A stretch of 45,011 nucleotides of DNA from the NCBI GenBank assembly GCA_030550675.1, contig JAUQOW010000005.1:1-45011 (forward strand). Reading direction: 5' to 3'. The stretch's first letter is position 1. Every line of letters begins with the position of its first letter. The DNA comes from Chloroflexota bacterium (GTDB lineage: Bacteria; Chloroflexota; Chloroflexia; Chloroflexales; Roseiflexaceae). Below are positions 22-34,707 of this stretch, piece after piece. The translations under genes were made by a program, and so were the position numbers. The notes below the pieces were generated by a model. The model did not search any database. It was not told the DNA's origin and saw only the letters and a program-made list of their open reading frames with translations.

Positions 22-1725
22 TCAACGTGCGGGCGTGACGAAACAATCCATCCCTGCGCGCCCTATCTCCCTTGCCAACACCCCTTCCAACTCCCCAACA
101 GCCCCCGGCAGCAGCGGGATGGCGCCGGCGCCGCCGGGGTAGCGTTCGGCGTCGCCTGTGCCCGGATACAGGATCAGCGCAGCGGCGACAGCGGGCACGC
201 TCGATGCGCCAATCGCGCTGGCATACACATATGCCTCCGCCAGGGCATCGGCGGGGACGCCGCGCCCGTCGGCATCCAGGCGGTATTTGGCATCCAGTAC
301 AATGACCCGCGGCGGGTGATCGGGTCGAACCAGTTCGATAGCGATGTCCGGGATGCGCATGTGGCGGTCGAGTGAGACCAGGGGAGAGTCATCCGCCGCC
401 TGCGACAGGCTCAGGCGGCGCTCTTGCGGACGTGGATCATCGTTGCGTCCATGTGATATCGGACGATACTGCGGTTGGTAGCGCAACCGCAGCGTCCAGC
501 CATTCCATGTGGCGATCAGCAGCGGCTCATCACGCCGAAGATTGAATGACCAGGCATCAGCGTCGTCTGCGGGAGGAACCAGCAGTGCGCAGGAATGCGC
601 TTCGATGCCCAGGTTCAGCAGCGCCTCGACGACCTGTAACACGCACCAGCGTTCGTACAAAAGCGGGAGATCGACAACCGGCAGATCGAACAGCGCACCC
701 GGATCGACGACCAGCGACTGGCGCAGTGCACGCCACATGCGGTACACCTGGCGATACGCAGGATCGCGCCGGATCAGCGGCGTGACCATAGGAGTCTGGC
801 GCAGCGTCGTCACCTGCTCGAAGAACGTCTCGGCGAGCAGGCTGGCAATGCGACGGGTGCACTGATCGCAGCGCGCAGCGATGGCGCGGGCGCGCGCGGC
901 GCGGGAGGAATCCGGCGCCACGGCAGTGAGACGGGCGATCTCGCGCTGCGCCCGATCTGCACAGCGCCGCGCGCGCCCGCGCAGAAGTTCCAGAGTGCGC
1001 TTTAGCAGACGATGTTCAGCCGTGTCATATGCGTCACGGCTGCACTCCTGCACCACAGTTCGCGGCAAGACGCCGCCTTCCGGTCGCACCAGGCGCTGCA
1101 CGTGCGGCGCTGCGTCCGGCGCTGCCGCTTCCAGGTCGCCCTGCACCGCGCGTTGCAGCGCCGTCGCCGAAAGTTCCCGCGCCTGTCCCAGCGGCACACG
1201 TTCATCATCGTGCTGCAGCGCGCTGCGGGGATGCGCCAGAATGCGCTGAACTGCCTGCTCGAACCGGTCGAATGACGAACCAAACAGCGCCATAGCGTCA
1301 TCAAACCACAAACGCGGTGTACCGTCGCTGCGTCCCAGTTGCGATCCGACAGCAGCGCCTGCCAGAGAACGCACCAGAGCGGGCGCCAGACGTTCGACAT
1401 CTTCCAGGATTGCAAGATACCGTTCACTATCGATTTTCCCCGGTGCAACCAGCAACCGCCATTGCCGCTCGTCACACCGTGCACCATCGACGAACATTGC
1501 CAGGTGCAGCGCATGCATGCCCACAGCCGCGCCAGGGTTCCATGCCCAGCGCCAGCGCATATCGCCGGGGCGGAGGAATGGCGACAATACCAGACCGTCA
1601 ACCGCCAGTTCCGGCGTCGCTCCGGCTGGCGGGGCGCACACAAACTCAACCGGCTGGTATTCGGCAATCGCTGGCAGATCGCCGTCTATTGCCGGTGAGA
1701 GTTCAATTTCCAGAGCAGTTCTCAT
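22..1725 (-). CDS. DUF2357 / PD-(D/E)XK nuclease-like protein
   Basis: A 567-residue protein resembling the DUF2357 (formerly DUF524) family. These proteins end in a restriction-endonuclease-like fold and are often encoded beside McrB-type AAA GTPases. The C-terminal part shows the expected core: IPDIAIEL from residue 458 (Asp460), then VIVLDAKYRL with Asp478 and Lys480, matching a PD-(D/E)XK active site. The middle holds the conserved YERWCVLQVVEAL segment. No signal peptide or membrane segment is seen. The ATG at 1725 gives the usual family length. The gene on its upstream side is the unrelated rdgB-like gene, so any GTPase partner would have to lie left of the window. Family is fairly sure; a DNA-cleaving defence role is inference. 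Confidence 0.75.
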   Translation of the reverse strand: MRTALEIELSPAIDGDLPAIAEYQPVEFVCAPPAGATPELAVDGLVLSPFLRPGDMRWRWAWNPGAAVGMHALHLAMFVDGARCDERQWRLLVAPGKIDSERYLAILEDVERLAPALVRSLAGAAVGSQLGRSDGTPRLWFDDAMALFGSSFDRFEQAVQRILAHPRSALQHDDERVPLGQARELSATALQRAVQGDLEAAAPDAAPHVQRLVRPEGGVLPRTVVQECSRDAYDTAEHRLLKRTLELLRGRARRCADRAQREIARLTAVAPDSSRAARARAIAARCDQCTRRIASLLAETFFEQVTTLRQTPMVTPLIRRDPAYRQVYRMWRALRQSLVVDPGALFDLPVVDLPLLYERWCVLQVVEALLNLGIEAHSCALLVPPADDADAWSFNLRRDEPLLIATWNGWTLRLRYQPQYRPISHGRNDDPRPQERRLSLSQAADDSPLVSLDRHMRIPDIAIELVRPDHPPRVIVLDAKYRLDADGRGVPADALAEAYVYASAIGASSVPAVAAALILYPGTGDAERYPGGAGAIPLLPGAVGELEGVLAREIGRAGMDCFVTPAR

Positions 1726-1753: not shown

Positions 1754-1870
1754 GCATCCAGCGTCGGCTGAGCCTGTCGAAGCCAATGCCTGCCACACCT
1801 CTCCAGCGACCGTGCCAGCGCCTCTTCACCTGGCACGCTATGTCGGCTGAGCCTGTCGACGCCGACGCCT
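1754..1870. repeat. Two TCGACAGGCTC-family inverted repeats
   Basis: Between the DUF2357 gene and rdgB lie two copies of the dispersed hairpin repeat seen elsewhere in the window. One is at about 1754-1794 (GTCGGCTGAGCCTGTCGA core), the other at about 1837-1870, where GTCGGC (1842-1847) pairs with GCCGAC (1861-1866). No convincing gene fits the 203-base gap; a 62-codon frame here (1744-1932) is just the repeat being read through. Confidence 0.6.
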
Positions 1871-6184: not shown

Positions 6185-6320
6185 GACACAAAGACGCAAA
6201 GACGCAAAGAGCCTTATGGACGGTCGTCTTGTCAGCCTTCACGGGAAGAACCTCAACCTGGACAATCACGCTTCCGCCTGCGGAGTGGTTGGCGCTGGCT
6301 TCGACAGGCTCAACCACCGC
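6185..6320. repeat. Octamer array and TCGACAGGCTC-type hairpin
   Basis: The 193-base spacer between the sugar kinase and the binding protein has no gene. It holds three octamers at 6185-6209 (GACACAAAGACGCAAAG and a further GACGCAAAG overlapping it) and a hairpin-repeat copy at about 6285-6320, where GTGGTT (6285-6290) pairs with AACCAC (6312-6317) around the invariant TCGACAGGCTC. Confidence 0.55.
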
Positions 6321-17238: not shown

Positions 17239-18033
17239 ATGCTGCATCCACGACACATCATGGGGATCATCGCACTGCTCCTGGCGCTTGCGGGATGCGG
17301 CGGCATACCGCTGCCCGGAGTCGGCGGCGCGCCGATGGCGGTCGAGCAACCGACGCTTCCGCCTGGTACCGATACGCCGGTTGTTCCTCCTCCAACCGAC
17401 ACCGCCGCGCCACAGCCCTCGCCAGAGACGACGCCGACCGTAGCAGCGACGCCGACCACAGCAACAACACCGGTCGCTGAAGCGCCCTCGCCCACGGCGC
17501 CAGCGCCTGAGCCGACTGCAACCGCTGTACCGACGCCTTCGCCAACCGCAACCGCAGCCGCGCCGACTGACACCCCTGGACCGACCGAAGAACCACTGTA
17601 CCTGCAACCGTCGCCAATCCCCGGCTTGCCGACTGCGCCTCCGCCGACCAATACGCCCACTCCAAGCGCAACCTCGACCGCGACGCCAGCGGCTTCACCA
17701 ACGCCGGATGTCAGCGTGCCGCCCACATCGACGCCAACTCCGACCTACCCGCCGGTGCCGATTGTGTCGTCACTGCGTGGAACCGTGGCGAATCCCGGCA
17801 ATGTGCGCGCTGATCCGAATGTCAGCGCAACCCCTATCGACCGCGTGAACCAGGGTGAAGAGGTGCAACTGCTGGGGCGCAGCGAGAATGGACGCTGGTA
17901 TCTGGTCTTGACTGTGCGCGGCGTGGCTGGCTGGGTCAGCGCCACGCTCCTGAATGTGCCGCCGGAGACGGCAGCGCTGGTGCCGGTCAACCCCGACATC
18001 GCATTGCCGACGCCGCCCGGCGGCGCGCCATAG
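17239..18033 (+). CDS. Lipoprotein with Pro/Thr linker and bacterial SH3 domain
   Basis: A 264-residue surface lipoprotein. A short signal peptide ends in lipobox LAGC (Cys20). Residues about 30-170 are a low-complexity linker of Pro, Thr, Ala and Ser (repeated TPTP- and ATPT-like units), a common cell-surface tether in Chloroflexota. The C-terminal part from about 173 is an SH3_3-type domain: LRGTVANPGNVRADPNVS, then VNQGEEVQLLGRSENGRW and GVAGWVSATLL. Such domains usually bind cell-wall or surface polymers. The start is the first ATG before the hydrophobic stretch. It stands alone between repeat regions. Role inferred as an envelope-binding protein. Confidence 0.88.
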   Translation: MLHPRHIMGIIALLLALAGCGGIPLPGVGGAPMAVEQPTLPPGTDTPVVPPPTDTAAPQPSPETTPTVAATPTTATTPVAEAPSPTAPAPEPTATAVPTPSPTATAAAPTDTPGPTEEPLYLQPSPIPGLPTAPPPTNTPTPSATSTATPAASPTPDVSVPPTSTPTPTYPPVPIVSSLRGTVANPGNVRADPNVSATPIDRVNQGEEVQLLGRSENGRWYLVLTVRGVAGWVSATLLNVPPETAALVPVNPDIALPTPPGGAP

Positions 18034-18095
18034 CAGGCTTCTCATCGGGCGATCAACCAGCGTTGCACACTCTTCACTATGGCGACCATTTCAGG

Positions 18096-18132
18096 GCTGG
18101 CGTTGGCTTCGACAGGCTCAGCCGACGCCAGC
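18096..18132. repeat. Hairpin repeat, 13-bp stem
   Basis: GCTGGCGTTGGCT (18096-18108) and AGCCGACGCCAGC (18120-18132) pair around the 11-base loop TCGACAGGCTC, with one G-T pair. It could act as a terminator for the SH3 lipoprotein gene but has no T-run. Confidence 0.8.
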
Positions 18133-18166
18133 TTCGCCTAATGATAGCGTTGTTTATGAGCAACCA

Positions 18167-18205
18167 GGCTGGCGCTGGCTTCGACAGGCTCAGCCAGCGC
18201 CAGCC
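18167..18205. repeat. Hairpin repeat, 14-bp perfect stem
   Basis: GGCTGGCGCTGGCT (18167-18180) pairs perfectly with AGCCAGCGCCAGCC (18192-18205) around the same TCGACAGGCTC loop as its neighbour 60 bases to the left. The stem differs from that copy in a way that keeps pairing. Confidence 0.85.
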
Positions 18206-18258
18206 TCTCCGCATCCTTGATTGTCCAGGTTCAGGTTGATTGCTCTATCAGAGCGACT

Positions 18259-18326
18259 GACGCAAAGGCGCAAAGACGCAAGGATTCGTCAGTCGGCAAG
18301 ACTTTGCACTTTTGCGTCTTCGCGCC
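18259..18326. repeat. Paired octamer arrays facing each other
   Basis: Forward units GACGCAAAGGCGCAAAG plus one more at 18259-18283 face reverse units at 18302-18326 (CTTTGCACTTTTGCGTC). The element ends 33 bases from the stop of the dioxygenase gene. The 325-base gap 18034-18358 is filled by these repeats and has no gene. Confidence 0.65.
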
Positions 18327-18358
18327 GCATGTTGGCGCGGCTGCCTGAACGCCTGGCA

Positions 18359-19828
18359 TTACGTCGTCATCGCCAGTTCCGGGCGAACCGTCTCGTACTT
18401 TCTGGCGTAGTCGCTCATCCCCTGAGGCGCAATGTCAACGACGTCATTGTACCCCAGACGTTTCAGCAGGCTGGCAACGGCGCTTGCCCGCGTGCCGCTC
18501 TCGCAGACGATCACGATGGTGCGATCAGCAGGCAATTCGCGCCATCGCTGCCTGATCTCGCTGAATGAAATCAGACGCACATCGGCGGGATCGCCGGGAA
18601 TAACCCCTTTTTCCCACTCGAACGGTTCGCGCACATCCAGAATGAGCGCATCGCGGTTGAGGGCGTAGCGATGGAGCATCTCCAGGTCGCCGATGGCGAT
18701 CCGTTCAACCGGCAAGCCGCCTGTCAACCAAACATTGACCGGTTCCTGCACATACCCGGCGACGGTAAATCCTTCTTCGCTGAACAGGTGCGCGGTTTCC
18801 TGCGCCAGCAGCGGAACATCGCTGATAAACATCAGCGGCGCATCGGCGCCGAGCAGCATCCTGGCGCGCTCCACCATGTTGCTCTTATTGAACGCAATGT
18901 TGATCGCGCCAGCCGGGTGACCATCAGCGAATGCCAGCGCTGGTCGCAGATCAATCAGGATTGCACCGTTCTGCATCGCGTCATACGCCTGTTGAACAGA
19001 GAGCGCCGGTACATCGGCAGACGGGTGGCGATGGTGATGCACAGCCGGATGGGTCGCTTCAGCAGGGAGCGGGAGGACGCCGCGGTTCGCATTGCGGTGG
19101 ATGAGCACCGATTCAACCGCTTCACGCGGCACGACGCCGCTGAGTTCAACGAATTCCTGCACGCTGCGCGCCTGCAACATCCAGTTGAAGCGTCGCTCGA
19201 ACCCGATGGTGCTGATCGGCTTGCCGCTCATCTGCTTGCCGCCGCATGCCGAACCGCCATAGTGCGCCGGGTAGATCTCGCAGTAATCCGGCAGTTCCAG
19301 CAGTCGCTGAAGGCTGTTGAACATCACCTCAGGTCCGGTCAGCGGCAGGTTGACCAGATCGGTGCGCGCCACATCGTTGATAAAGAGCGAGTCGCCGGTC
19401 AGGACCATCCAGGGCTGATCAGAACGCGGCGTATCGATGACAGCATACGCCATGTGCTCCGGCGTGTGTCCGGGAGTATGGATCGCCCGGAGAATGACGT
19501 TGCCGATCCGAATCTCGTCGCCGTCGCGCACGCGCGTGTGCGGATAGTGAACCGATGCGCCCGTGATCTCATTCTCGATGTCGTCCCGACTCGGCGCGTA
19601 GATCGTCGCGCCGGTCAACGCCGCCAGCGCCCGTCCGGTCGAGAAATAGTCGGCGTGAAAGTGCGTCTCGACAATCGCCGTAATGCGCAGCCCCCTGTCG
19701 GCAGCCGCCATCAGATACTCCTCCGGCGGCAGACCCGGATCGACCACCGCGCTCTCGCCGGTTTGCACGCATCCAATCAGGTACGATGCCGCCGAGACCG
19801 CCTCATTGAGGAATTGACGAAAGATCAT
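18359..19828 (-). CDS. CstB-like persulfide dioxygenase-rhodanese fusion
   Basis: A 489-residue, three-domain protein: MBL-fold persulfide dioxygenase (about 1-240), an inactive rhodanese-homology domain (about 262-350, no active Cys) and an active rhodanese (about 375-480). The iron site starts VETHFHADYFSTG (His56, His58, Asp60; Tyr61 where classic MBL enzymes have His). The C-terminal loop CESGTR gives active Cys442. This order matches CstB of Staphylococcus aureus, which turns low-molecular-weight persulfides into thiosulfate. AAGGAGG precedes the ATG. It follows the SQR gene by 18 bases, so SQR would make persulfide that this enzyme then oxidises. Exact products are inferred. Confidence 0.88.
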   Translation of the reverse strand: MIFRQFLNEAVSAASYLIGCVQTGESAVVDPGLPPEEYLMAAADRGLRITAIVETHFHADYFSTGRALAALTGATIYAPSRDDIENEITGASVHYPHTRVRDGDEIRIGNVILRAIHTPGHTPEHMAYAVIDTPRSDQPWMVLTGDSLFINDVARTDLVNLPLTGPEVMFNSLQRLLELPDYCEIYPAHYGGSACGGKQMSGKPISTIGFERRFNWMLQARSVQEFVELSGVVPREAVESVLIHRNANRGVLPLPAEATHPAVHHHRHPSADVPALSVQQAYDAMQNGAILIDLRPALAFADGHPAGAINIAFNKSNMVERARMLLGADAPLMFISDVPLLAQETAHLFSEEGFTVAGYVQEPVNVWLTGGLPVERIAIGDLEMLHRYALNRDALILDVREPFEWEKGVIPGDPADVRLISFSEIRQRWRELPADRTIVIVCESGTRASAVASLLKRLGYNDVVDIAPQGMSDYARKYETVRPELAMTT

Positions 19829-26483: not shown

Positions 26484-26516
26484 GCAGAGAGCCGTTGCAA
26501 TGCAACGGCTCTCTGC
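26484..26516 (-). terminator. 15-bp perfect hairpin after the SARP regulator
   Basis: GCAGAGAGCCGTTGC (26484-26498), loop AAT, GCAACGGCTCTCTGC. It starts 20 bases after the regulator's stop on the minus strand and is the most likely end of its transcript, though only TTGTG follows the stem. Confidence 0.65.
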
Positions 26517-30861: not shown

Positions 30862-30907
30862 TAGGACGATCAACCAGATATTGGACAATCTCGTGATCGG
30901 CTTTGGC

Positions 30908-30945
30908 TTCGACAGGCTCAGCCAGCGCAGGTTGAGCCTGTCGAA
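30908..30945. repeat. Inverted pair of TTCGACAGGCTCA
   Basis: TTCGACAGGCTCA at 30908-30920 and its exact reverse complement at 30933-30945, with a 12-base loop. It is the same family as the 18.1 kb hairpins, but here the core sequence itself forms the arms. Confidence 0.85.
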
Positions 30946-30999: not shown

Positions 31000-31320
31000 G
31001 ACGCAAAGACGCAAAGGCGCAAAGCGTTGCGATCAATACCTCACACTTTTGCGGGTGCAGGCATGAATTGTCAGGCGGCAAGCAAGCACGTTTTTGAGGC
31101 ATGCGCCCTGGCTGGCGCCTGAAGTCGCGCCGGGCAGACGTTCCGCCGAGCGTCCACCTGCGCGGTTCGACACGCTCACTGCGCGTGGACGCCGCCGTTC
31201 CCGTCCGCGCAGGCGGACGGTCGGCCGCAGGCCCGCCAGGAGCGATTTCAATCGCTGGCAGCCGGAGCGTCGTTTCCTGACACATCATGCCTGCACCCCG
31301 CCTTCGCGCCTTTGCGTCAG
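31000..31320. mobile_element. MITE-like element with two nested pairs of inverted ends
   Basis: Outer ends: octamer array at 31000-31024 (GACGCAAAGACGCAAAGG and onward) and its reverse at 31301-31320. Inner ends: GCGGGTGCAGGCATGA at 31051-31066 continuing to 31075, against a near-perfect reverse copy at 31276-31301. The core holds palindromes (CCGTCCGC/GCGGACGG and CGTCCAC/GTGGACG) and no gene. The inner-end sequence also occurs near 23076-23098. The 515-base gap 30862-31376 is otherwise empty apart from the inverted pair at 30908. Confidence 0.55.
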
Positions 31321-34567: not shown

Positions 34568-34707
34568 CTGAGCCTGTCGAGGGGGCGAAGGGCGAGCGGC
34601 GGCGCGCCCCCTTCGACAGGCTCAGGGGGCGCGCCGCCTCATGTCCTACTTCCAGTACCTCAACGGGACTGAAGCGCGGAGTCTTTGCGCCTTTGCGCCT
34701 TGGTGTG
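34568..34707. repeat. Inverted TGAGCCTGTCGA pair and reverse octamer array
   Basis: CTGAGCCTGTCGAGGGGGC (from 34568) pairs with GCCCCCTTCGACAGGCTCAG (ending at about 34625). Further right, 34678-34707 is a reverse octamer run (TCTTTGCGCCTTTGCGCC). Confidence 0.65.

Follow-up and report, generated by a model that had tools for sequence, protein, structure and literature searches.

The window, by which we mean the whole stretch of 45,011 nt analysed here, carries two hairpins at 18.1 kb between convergent open reading frames, one at 17239-18033 (+) with an SH3_3 domain and one at 18359-19828 (-) with rhodanese and Lactamase_B domains. Both hairpins enclose the same 11-nt core, TCGACAGGCTC, as their loop (Table 1), and folding of the + strand as DNA gives z values against shuffles of -3.8 for hairpin 1 and -5.6 for hairpin 2. 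The preliminary description of this DNA had proposed that the two stems differ and still pair. Both do fold, and one of the two differing positions is a T-A/C-G double change; the other is a T.G pair in one hairpin against T-A in the other. Inspection of the sequence finds no T-run after the stem of either hairpin, and a role as intrinsic terminator is therefore rejected. A terminator scan of 17950-18450, covering loops of 3-8 nt only, gave a single match, at 18381, away from the hairpins, and a search of the window against Rfam returned no family at the gathering threshold.

Table 1. Hairpin copies and associated features in the window
Feature	Coordinates	Strand	Exact core start	Details
Diverged copy	402..412	+		Loop GCGACAGGCTC; stem pairs 8/10
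Core copy	1770..1780	-	1770-	Stem pairs 7/10
Core copy	1849..1859	-	1849-	Stem pairs 6/10
Core copy	6301..6311	+	6301+	Diverged element with arms A and B; weak fold
MITE-like element with both 18.1-kb hairpins	18042..18250			Degenerate terminal inverted repeats, consensus TCATAGGAAGATCAACC, 3 and 5 mismatches
310-bp stretch missing at the orthologous intergenic site of G252 and G253	18045..18354			3 and 7 bp there
Hairpin 1	18096..18132	+	18109+	13-bp stem, one T.G pair; loop TCGACAGGCTC at 18109-18119
Hairpin 2	18167..18205	+	18181+	14-bp perfect stem; loop TCGACAGGCTC at 18181-18191
Arm A and two opposite cores, 25 bp apart	30868..30944	+	30909+, 30934-	Stem pairs 7/10 (30909) and 6/10 (30934)
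Second, weak core beside the 34598 copy	34570..34580	-	34570-	Stem pairs 4/10
Core copy	34598..34638	+	34613+	15-bp perfect stem GGCGGCGCGCCCCCT/AGGGGGCGCGCCGCC, unrelated to the other stems

Nine exact TCGACAGGCTC cores are present in the window (Table 1), in agreement with the earlier estimate of at least seven, and when up to one mismatch is allowed the count rises to 12 against 1.37 expected, a number reached in 0 of 100 shuffles. Good pairing is not shared by every copy; the weaker ones pair at four to seven of ten positions or, at 6301, fold poorly (z -1.34, with 18 of 200 shuffles equally good). Measured against the element arms, the loop of the 6301 copy points in the less common direction. 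The loop had also been called invariant. It is conserved, not invariant: at 402 a changed loop sits on a stem pairing at 8/10 positions, and nine hairpins in the own-genome loci scanned combine good stems with non-exact loops bearing 1-3 changes each. A search with the exact loop misses such copies and so overstates the constancy of the loop.

The genome from which the window comes (5.06 Mb in 446 contigs) contains 314 exact 11-mer cores and 229 exact 17-mers, and the same patterns read backwards give 0 matches for the 11-mer and 0 for the 17-mer. Of the 251 Chloroflexota genomes sampled, 68 contain the 15-mer CTTCGACARGCTCAG and 27 have at least 10 copies of it, and within the Roseiflexus-like genus the counts run 264, 215, 50, 24, 1 and 0, so that two of the five congeners of the window genome have no copy or just one. 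A scan of public genomes returned at least 117 stretches carrying the hairpin; among the matches listed are Actinomycetota, alpha-, beta- and gamma-proteobacteria, Bacteroidota, Chloroflexota and others, with phyla assigned from the record names. All 35 named genomes, which were picked for carrying at least one 17-mer copy, contain the 15-mer (6-595 copies each, the control giving no more than one match per genome), the top count of 595 belonging to Microlunatus kandeliicorticis (G275, locus L081), which has no RAYT or Y1 match. One of the 35, Candidatus Oscillochloris fontis (G260), is also G012 of the Chloroflexota sample, with equal counts and an identical locus. An uncultured Roseiflexus sp. 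(L110) has the same arms as the element of the window genome, and the genus is termed Roseiflexus-like on this ground. These data show a dispersed, loop-tagged family of palindromic repeats with the core CTTCGACARGCTCAG in several phyla. In the main texts of the freely available literature searched, none of the matches listed, judged by title and opening lines of the abstract, is a paper on the core, its reverse complement or related forms, and the matches listed for searches on Roseiflexus and MITEs and on REPs and loop inversion contain nothing on the hairpin family.

Covariation of the stems was measured on a sample fetched by the loop only, made up of the 11-mer copies on contigs C1-C105 and in the window (107 unique copies, 69 distinct stems). 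Watson-Crick pairs fill 530 of its 690 stem cells, compared with 430.0 after shuffling of the 3' letters within columns (sd 7.9; maximum 454 in 300 shuffles), a procedure that preserves column composition and not the relatedness of copies. A larger sample from the same genome (625 of 800 cells paired) likewise lies above every shuffle; part of it was fetched by the 17-mer, which fixes stem positions 1-3, and the loop-only sample is preferred for this reason. In the named genomes, 85 copies that do not match the fetching 17-mer (53 distinct stems) have 183 of 265 cells paired versus 119.0 (sd 6.3) after shuffling. Across the named genomes pairing is high only at positions 1-4 and drops at 5-6. 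Sliding the arms against each other leaves 20-30% of cells paired in the larger samples. The proposal of a hairpin family with strongly covarying stems is thus supported. Among the 160 cells at positions 9 and 10 of the larger sample the mismatches include 33 G.T and 11 A.C, and G.T mismatches are unequal between strands, 86 versus 48 in the own copies and 8 versus 20, the opposite direction, in the other genomes. As a mark of an RNA or single-strand function this asymmetry is equivocal, since the own and the other genomes disagree.

In the sampled part of the window genome many of the hairpins are the center of a larger element, in which one or more hairpins lie between two different arms bounded by terminal inverted repeats. 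Pairs of the TCATAGGAAGATCAACC repeat occur 60 times in the own sample, 58 of them enclosing a loop (79 loops in all), and the reversed repeat, used as a control in the same sample, gives 0 pairs; about half of the 157 unique exact-loop copies in that sample lie inside such an element. As is typical of MITEs, the element is short and non-coding, has many copies and carries terminal inverted repeats. The commonest size is 125-129 bp with one loop (27 of 58), followed by 150-152 bp (13 of 58), and nine of these 13 have two exact loops, from which it follows that elements of ~126 bp grow by 25-bp hairpin units. Tandem arrays of 3-4 hairpins are seen at L266 (G000:C86), L030 and L374, with spacing of 44, 72 and 54 bp.

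The orthologous 18.1-kb sites of two relatives (G252, 90% identity; G253, 89%) are empty, as evidenced by the missing 310-bp stretch, and that of a third, G163, holds other sequence with no hairpin. Two further own elements are absent from G253 (L364/L344 and L250/L189). The junctions in the empty-site alignments are ragged and no target-site duplication is established. Within the 310 bp missing from the relatives, window positions 18258-18330 hold a CGCAAAGGCGCAAAGACGCAAGG-type repeat with an inverted partner.

The loop is not palindromic, and its direction can be read against the surrounding arms. With the same arms and the same stem it is found in both directions; among single-hairpin elements it is + in 19, - in 6 and ambiguous in 2. 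Comparison of orthologous loci shows that such inversions occur in place. At L304 of G252 and L348 of G253, which are 96% identical over 1,991 bp, the loop reads GAGCCTGTCGA at one locus and TCGACAGGCTC at its counterpart, and the 10-bp stem differs by one base; the arms resemble those of other elements, this being a repeated element. At L253 of the own genome and L309 of G252 both flanks align, the loop is inverted, and the pair at stem position 5 differs as well (T-A against C-G), as do further positions in the arms. The 50-bp flanks of L253 have no match, other than the right-side ortholog, in the other fetched loci of the three genomes, a comparison that covered part of each genome. A third inversion (L266/L330) is aligned on one side only and is tandemly multiplied in the own genome. 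At seven more loci, where both genomes have a hairpin at one site, the loop orientation is unchanged, so that 10 loci were kept, 3 inverted and 7 same; in four of the seven (L255/L342, L259/L308, L260/L306 and L379/L318) the flanks are unequal or partly unaligned, and in a fifth (L030/L356) the hairpin is tripled in one genome. Matches over the repeat only, which may be paralogues, were left out of the count. These comprise L006, L007 and L195 with L339, which read inverted; L012 and L373 with L313; L238, L283 and L301 with L340; L360 and L385 with L283/L301; L367 with L304/L348; and L357 with L320. Also left out was L011/L303, where different elements occupy one site.

Polymerase template switching between inverted repeats, with homogenisation of the arms and inversion of the spacer, is described in two papers (PMC8604942, PMC8794818). 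Since matched arms together with an inverted spacer are the signature of a template switch, the covariation seen here does not on its own point to selection. A polymerase that switched strands within the hairpin would copy one arm from the other, which could homogenise the arms and produce the covariation; it could also invert the 11-nt loop in place, and might add hairpin units in 25-bp steps. Spread of the elements would fall to a candidate enzyme, with a non-autonomous MITE-like element, the carrier of about half of the sampled copies, probably moving by a route other than RAYT. On balance we consider it probable that this is a loop-tagged family which has a MITE-like carrier here, moves without RAYT and evolves in place by template switching. 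The inversions are seen where stems are ~10 bp, in the Roseiflexus-like genus, which fits template switching; the short-stem named genomes keep the GAACGG-type head one-sided, 116 of 240 copies having it on one side and none having it solely on the opposite side. These observations suggest that the hairpin arms stay matched through copying errors and not through natural selection alone.

Several findings count against template switching. Just two of the inversions could be aligned across both flanks. Flipped copies show no extra trace of correction, stems being equally perfect in both orientations (9.2/10). An arm-only tree of 28 elements requires five orientation changes; orientation is clustered on it (as few changes in 5 of 500 shuffles), and none of its branches is strongly supported. 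L304/L348 may reflect conversion between paralogues. The Bacteroidota-type flank is found on the opposite side in 2 copies versus 22, which is left unexplained. Finally, L362/L327 retains different uncompensated mismatches in the two genomes (C.A and T.G) with the loop in the same orientation; the preliminary description had taken stem mutation without compensation, across the genome, as the sign that would undo a selected fold, and it is found at this one locus.

The leading alternative is that selection on a folded RNA or DNA, such as an mRNA 3' end or a protein-binding site, maintains stem and loop and is indifferent to the direction of the loop. Selection would yield the same pattern as arm homogenisation in the loop-only sample (530/690 versus 430.0); covariation is strong and extends to the short stems found in other phyla, with no inversion relative to the GAACGG head seen there, and the loop is common to several phyla. 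Set against this are the absence of a T-tract terminator at the 18.1-kb hairpins, the opposite G.T/A.C strand asymmetries of own and other genomes, the failure of any family to reach its Rfam threshold in the window, and the two of five congeners with 0 or 1 copies, in which the element is hence dispensable. As the sole explanation we regard selection as unlikely, and the original argument from compensation to selection is weakened for the Roseiflexus-like genus, in which the orthologous loop inversions point to template switching. Template switching does not, however, account for a loop common to several phyla, for which a recognition factor or selection is needed. The cross-phylum loop and the covariation of the short stems call for such a factor or a function, and selection may still have a part.

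Ectopic gene conversion between oppositely oriented copies would also give an inverted loop with a matching stem, and the hundreds of similar copies per genome and the likeness of the L304/L348 arms to those of other elements speak in its favor. At L253/L309, however, the flanks are unmatched up to the stem in the part of the genomes fetched, which would confine the tract to ~30 bp. Such a tract is short for homologous recombination. The unmatched L253 flanks argue against conversion from another copy, and we judge this explanation somewhat less likely than selection.

A more conventional assignment, made in the preliminary description, is to REP/REPIN sequences, the hairpins being Y1 substrates of a RAYT (TnpA_REP) and the stems covarying since the enzyme needs a folded strand. 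The palindromes are dispersed, and in Proteobacteria they form inverted pairs with the head on one side. A search for a RAYT-like gene, which had been proposed as a check, gives eight NF047646 (RAYT-like) matches at five places in the own genome, none above the curated cut-off. NF047646 is matched in 19 of 27 Chloroflexota genomes with at least 10 copies versus 91 of the remaining 224 (Fisher p 0.004, uncorrected for kinship), and weak matches occur in two genomes, G091 and G217, that lack PF01797. PF01797 itself shows no association with copy number (13 of 27 versus 84 of 224; p 0.30). No NF047646 match is found in 13 of the 35 named genomes, which have 18-595 copies each (draft assemblies can miss genes), and PF01797 is matched in 0 of 19 copy-bearing genomes, namely these 13 and six further Chloroflexota that include G091 and G217.

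The RAYT loci have palindromes of another kind. A GTRG-headed stem occurs in 18 of 30 Chloroflexota RAYT loci from 15 genomes (two or more in 15), compared with 4 of 40 other own loci of ~3 kb (two or more in 1). Among the 30 RAYT loci taken from 22 named genomes, 9 have such a stem (two or more in 4). TCGACARGCTC, by comparison, is present in one of the 30 Chloroflexota loci (2 copies versus 2.43 expected by density) and in three of the 30 named-genome loci (4 versus 1.98), the expectations being slightly low from applying 15-mer counts to 11-mer matches. One locus is in both sets (L156 = L224), and across the 59 distinct RAYT loci the hairpin adjoins rayt genes at chance level only. Its foot does not carry the GT(A/G)G tetranucleotide; own flanks are mostly of GATC and AACC types, and the commonest head in the named genomes is GAACGG. 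A RAYT-like gene of 271 codons in the own genome (L031:106-918, G000:C24) contains in-frame GTAG-type palindromes, GTAGGGGCAACCCCCTGTGGTTGCCC, a feature reported in PMC6006769 for subclass 2.4 RAYT genes. With GTAG-type stems at the RAYT loci, the hairpin there at chance level and 13 genomes matching neither profile, we rejected RAYT as the cognate enzyme and consider the REP/REPIN reading improbable.

Other candidates for a partner enzyme were tried. At L225 (Sphingobium ummariense) a hairpin pair lies just outside an IS200 element, but it is absent at the other two IS200 copies, and the link was rejected. Among 40 open reading frames from 21 intervals between two hairpins, taken as the best frame per strand and hence many of them antisense, 24 Pfam families were found and no transposase or recombinase. 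A DUF222/HNH gene lies between family hairpins in Microbacterium mangrovi (L033:4785-6416); it could be mobile, or its position could be chance. A site-specific invertase would produce clean inversions between inverted repeats as seen here, but the arms vary widely (69 different 20-nt stem pairs in 107 copies), unlike recombinase sites, and we give this explanation very little credence.

The element resembles the bacterial MITE-like small mobile sequences that Delihas reportedly described in 2007 in being a ~126-bp non-coding element with terminal inverted repeats, and differs from them in a central hairpin common to other phyla, a 25-bp length step and an inverting loop. GTAG REPs, as two papers present them (Nunvar 2010, PMC2817692; Quentin 2018, PMC6006769), are likewise dispersed short palindromes of high copy number, a level that the 314 cores also reach, with inverted pairs in Proteobacteria. 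In contrast to them, the TCGACAGGCTC family has no GTRG head, has a conserved 11-nt loop that inverts in situ in the Roseiflexus-like genus, and shows no RAYT adjacency beyond chance, with no RAYT match in 13 named genomes. The text of Di Nocera 2013 (PMC3733652) describes GTAG and CGTC superfamilies, and there the CGTC REPs are said to lack a dedicated transposase; they share with the present family occurrence as palindromes in several phyla and a tag at one end. By that text, its consensus figures apart, CGTC REPs have a loop of 4-5 nt versus 11 nt here, a CGTC head, which is missing from the window-genome flanks, and an 8-9 bp stem starting AT. The nearest form to the CGTC REPs as described there is the Bacteroidota hairpin, GTCATGCT-GAGC.... 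Template-switch hairpins share arm homogenisation and loop inversion, and a passage of Monttinen & Loytynoja 2022 (PMC8794818) calls the combination of compensatory change and loop inversion extremely rare in rRNA; compared with the rRNA cases given there, the present one offers one orthologous pair, an abundant repeat and an 11-nt loop with readable direction. The hairpins are best described as a REP-like, loop-tagged family that is not tied to RAYT, has a MITE-like carrier in the genus and is probably edited by template switching. A broader claim, that CTTCGACARGCTCAG marks a third palindromic superfamily, one tagged by its loop and dispersed over several phyla at up to hundreds of copies per genome without Y1 or RAYT, in which template switching and not selection pairs the stems and flips the loop, is plausible but tentative.

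A compensatory change in a stem is commonly taken to prove that the structure is under selection. A non-palindromic loop reports when a hairpin has turned round, so that the mutational share of stem matching becomes measurable in nature, and if the template-switch reading is true these repeats are a natural, directly readable record of such events. They also constitute a widespread repeat family that the RAYT model leaves unexplained.

A few minor observations adjoin these results. In a phage collection, matches to part or all of the head-tagged consensus occur in 18 records of Caulobacter phages. At 26485-26515 the window has a perfect stem of at least 10 pairs around TTGCAATGCAA, which bears no relation to the TCGACAGGCTC family. 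Finally, window positions 31167-31177 belong to a sister hairpin family, also present at L259, L271 and L275, which has the loop TCGACACGCTC (TCGGCACGCTC in L271) and a stem near CCTGCGCGGT/ACCGCGCGTG.
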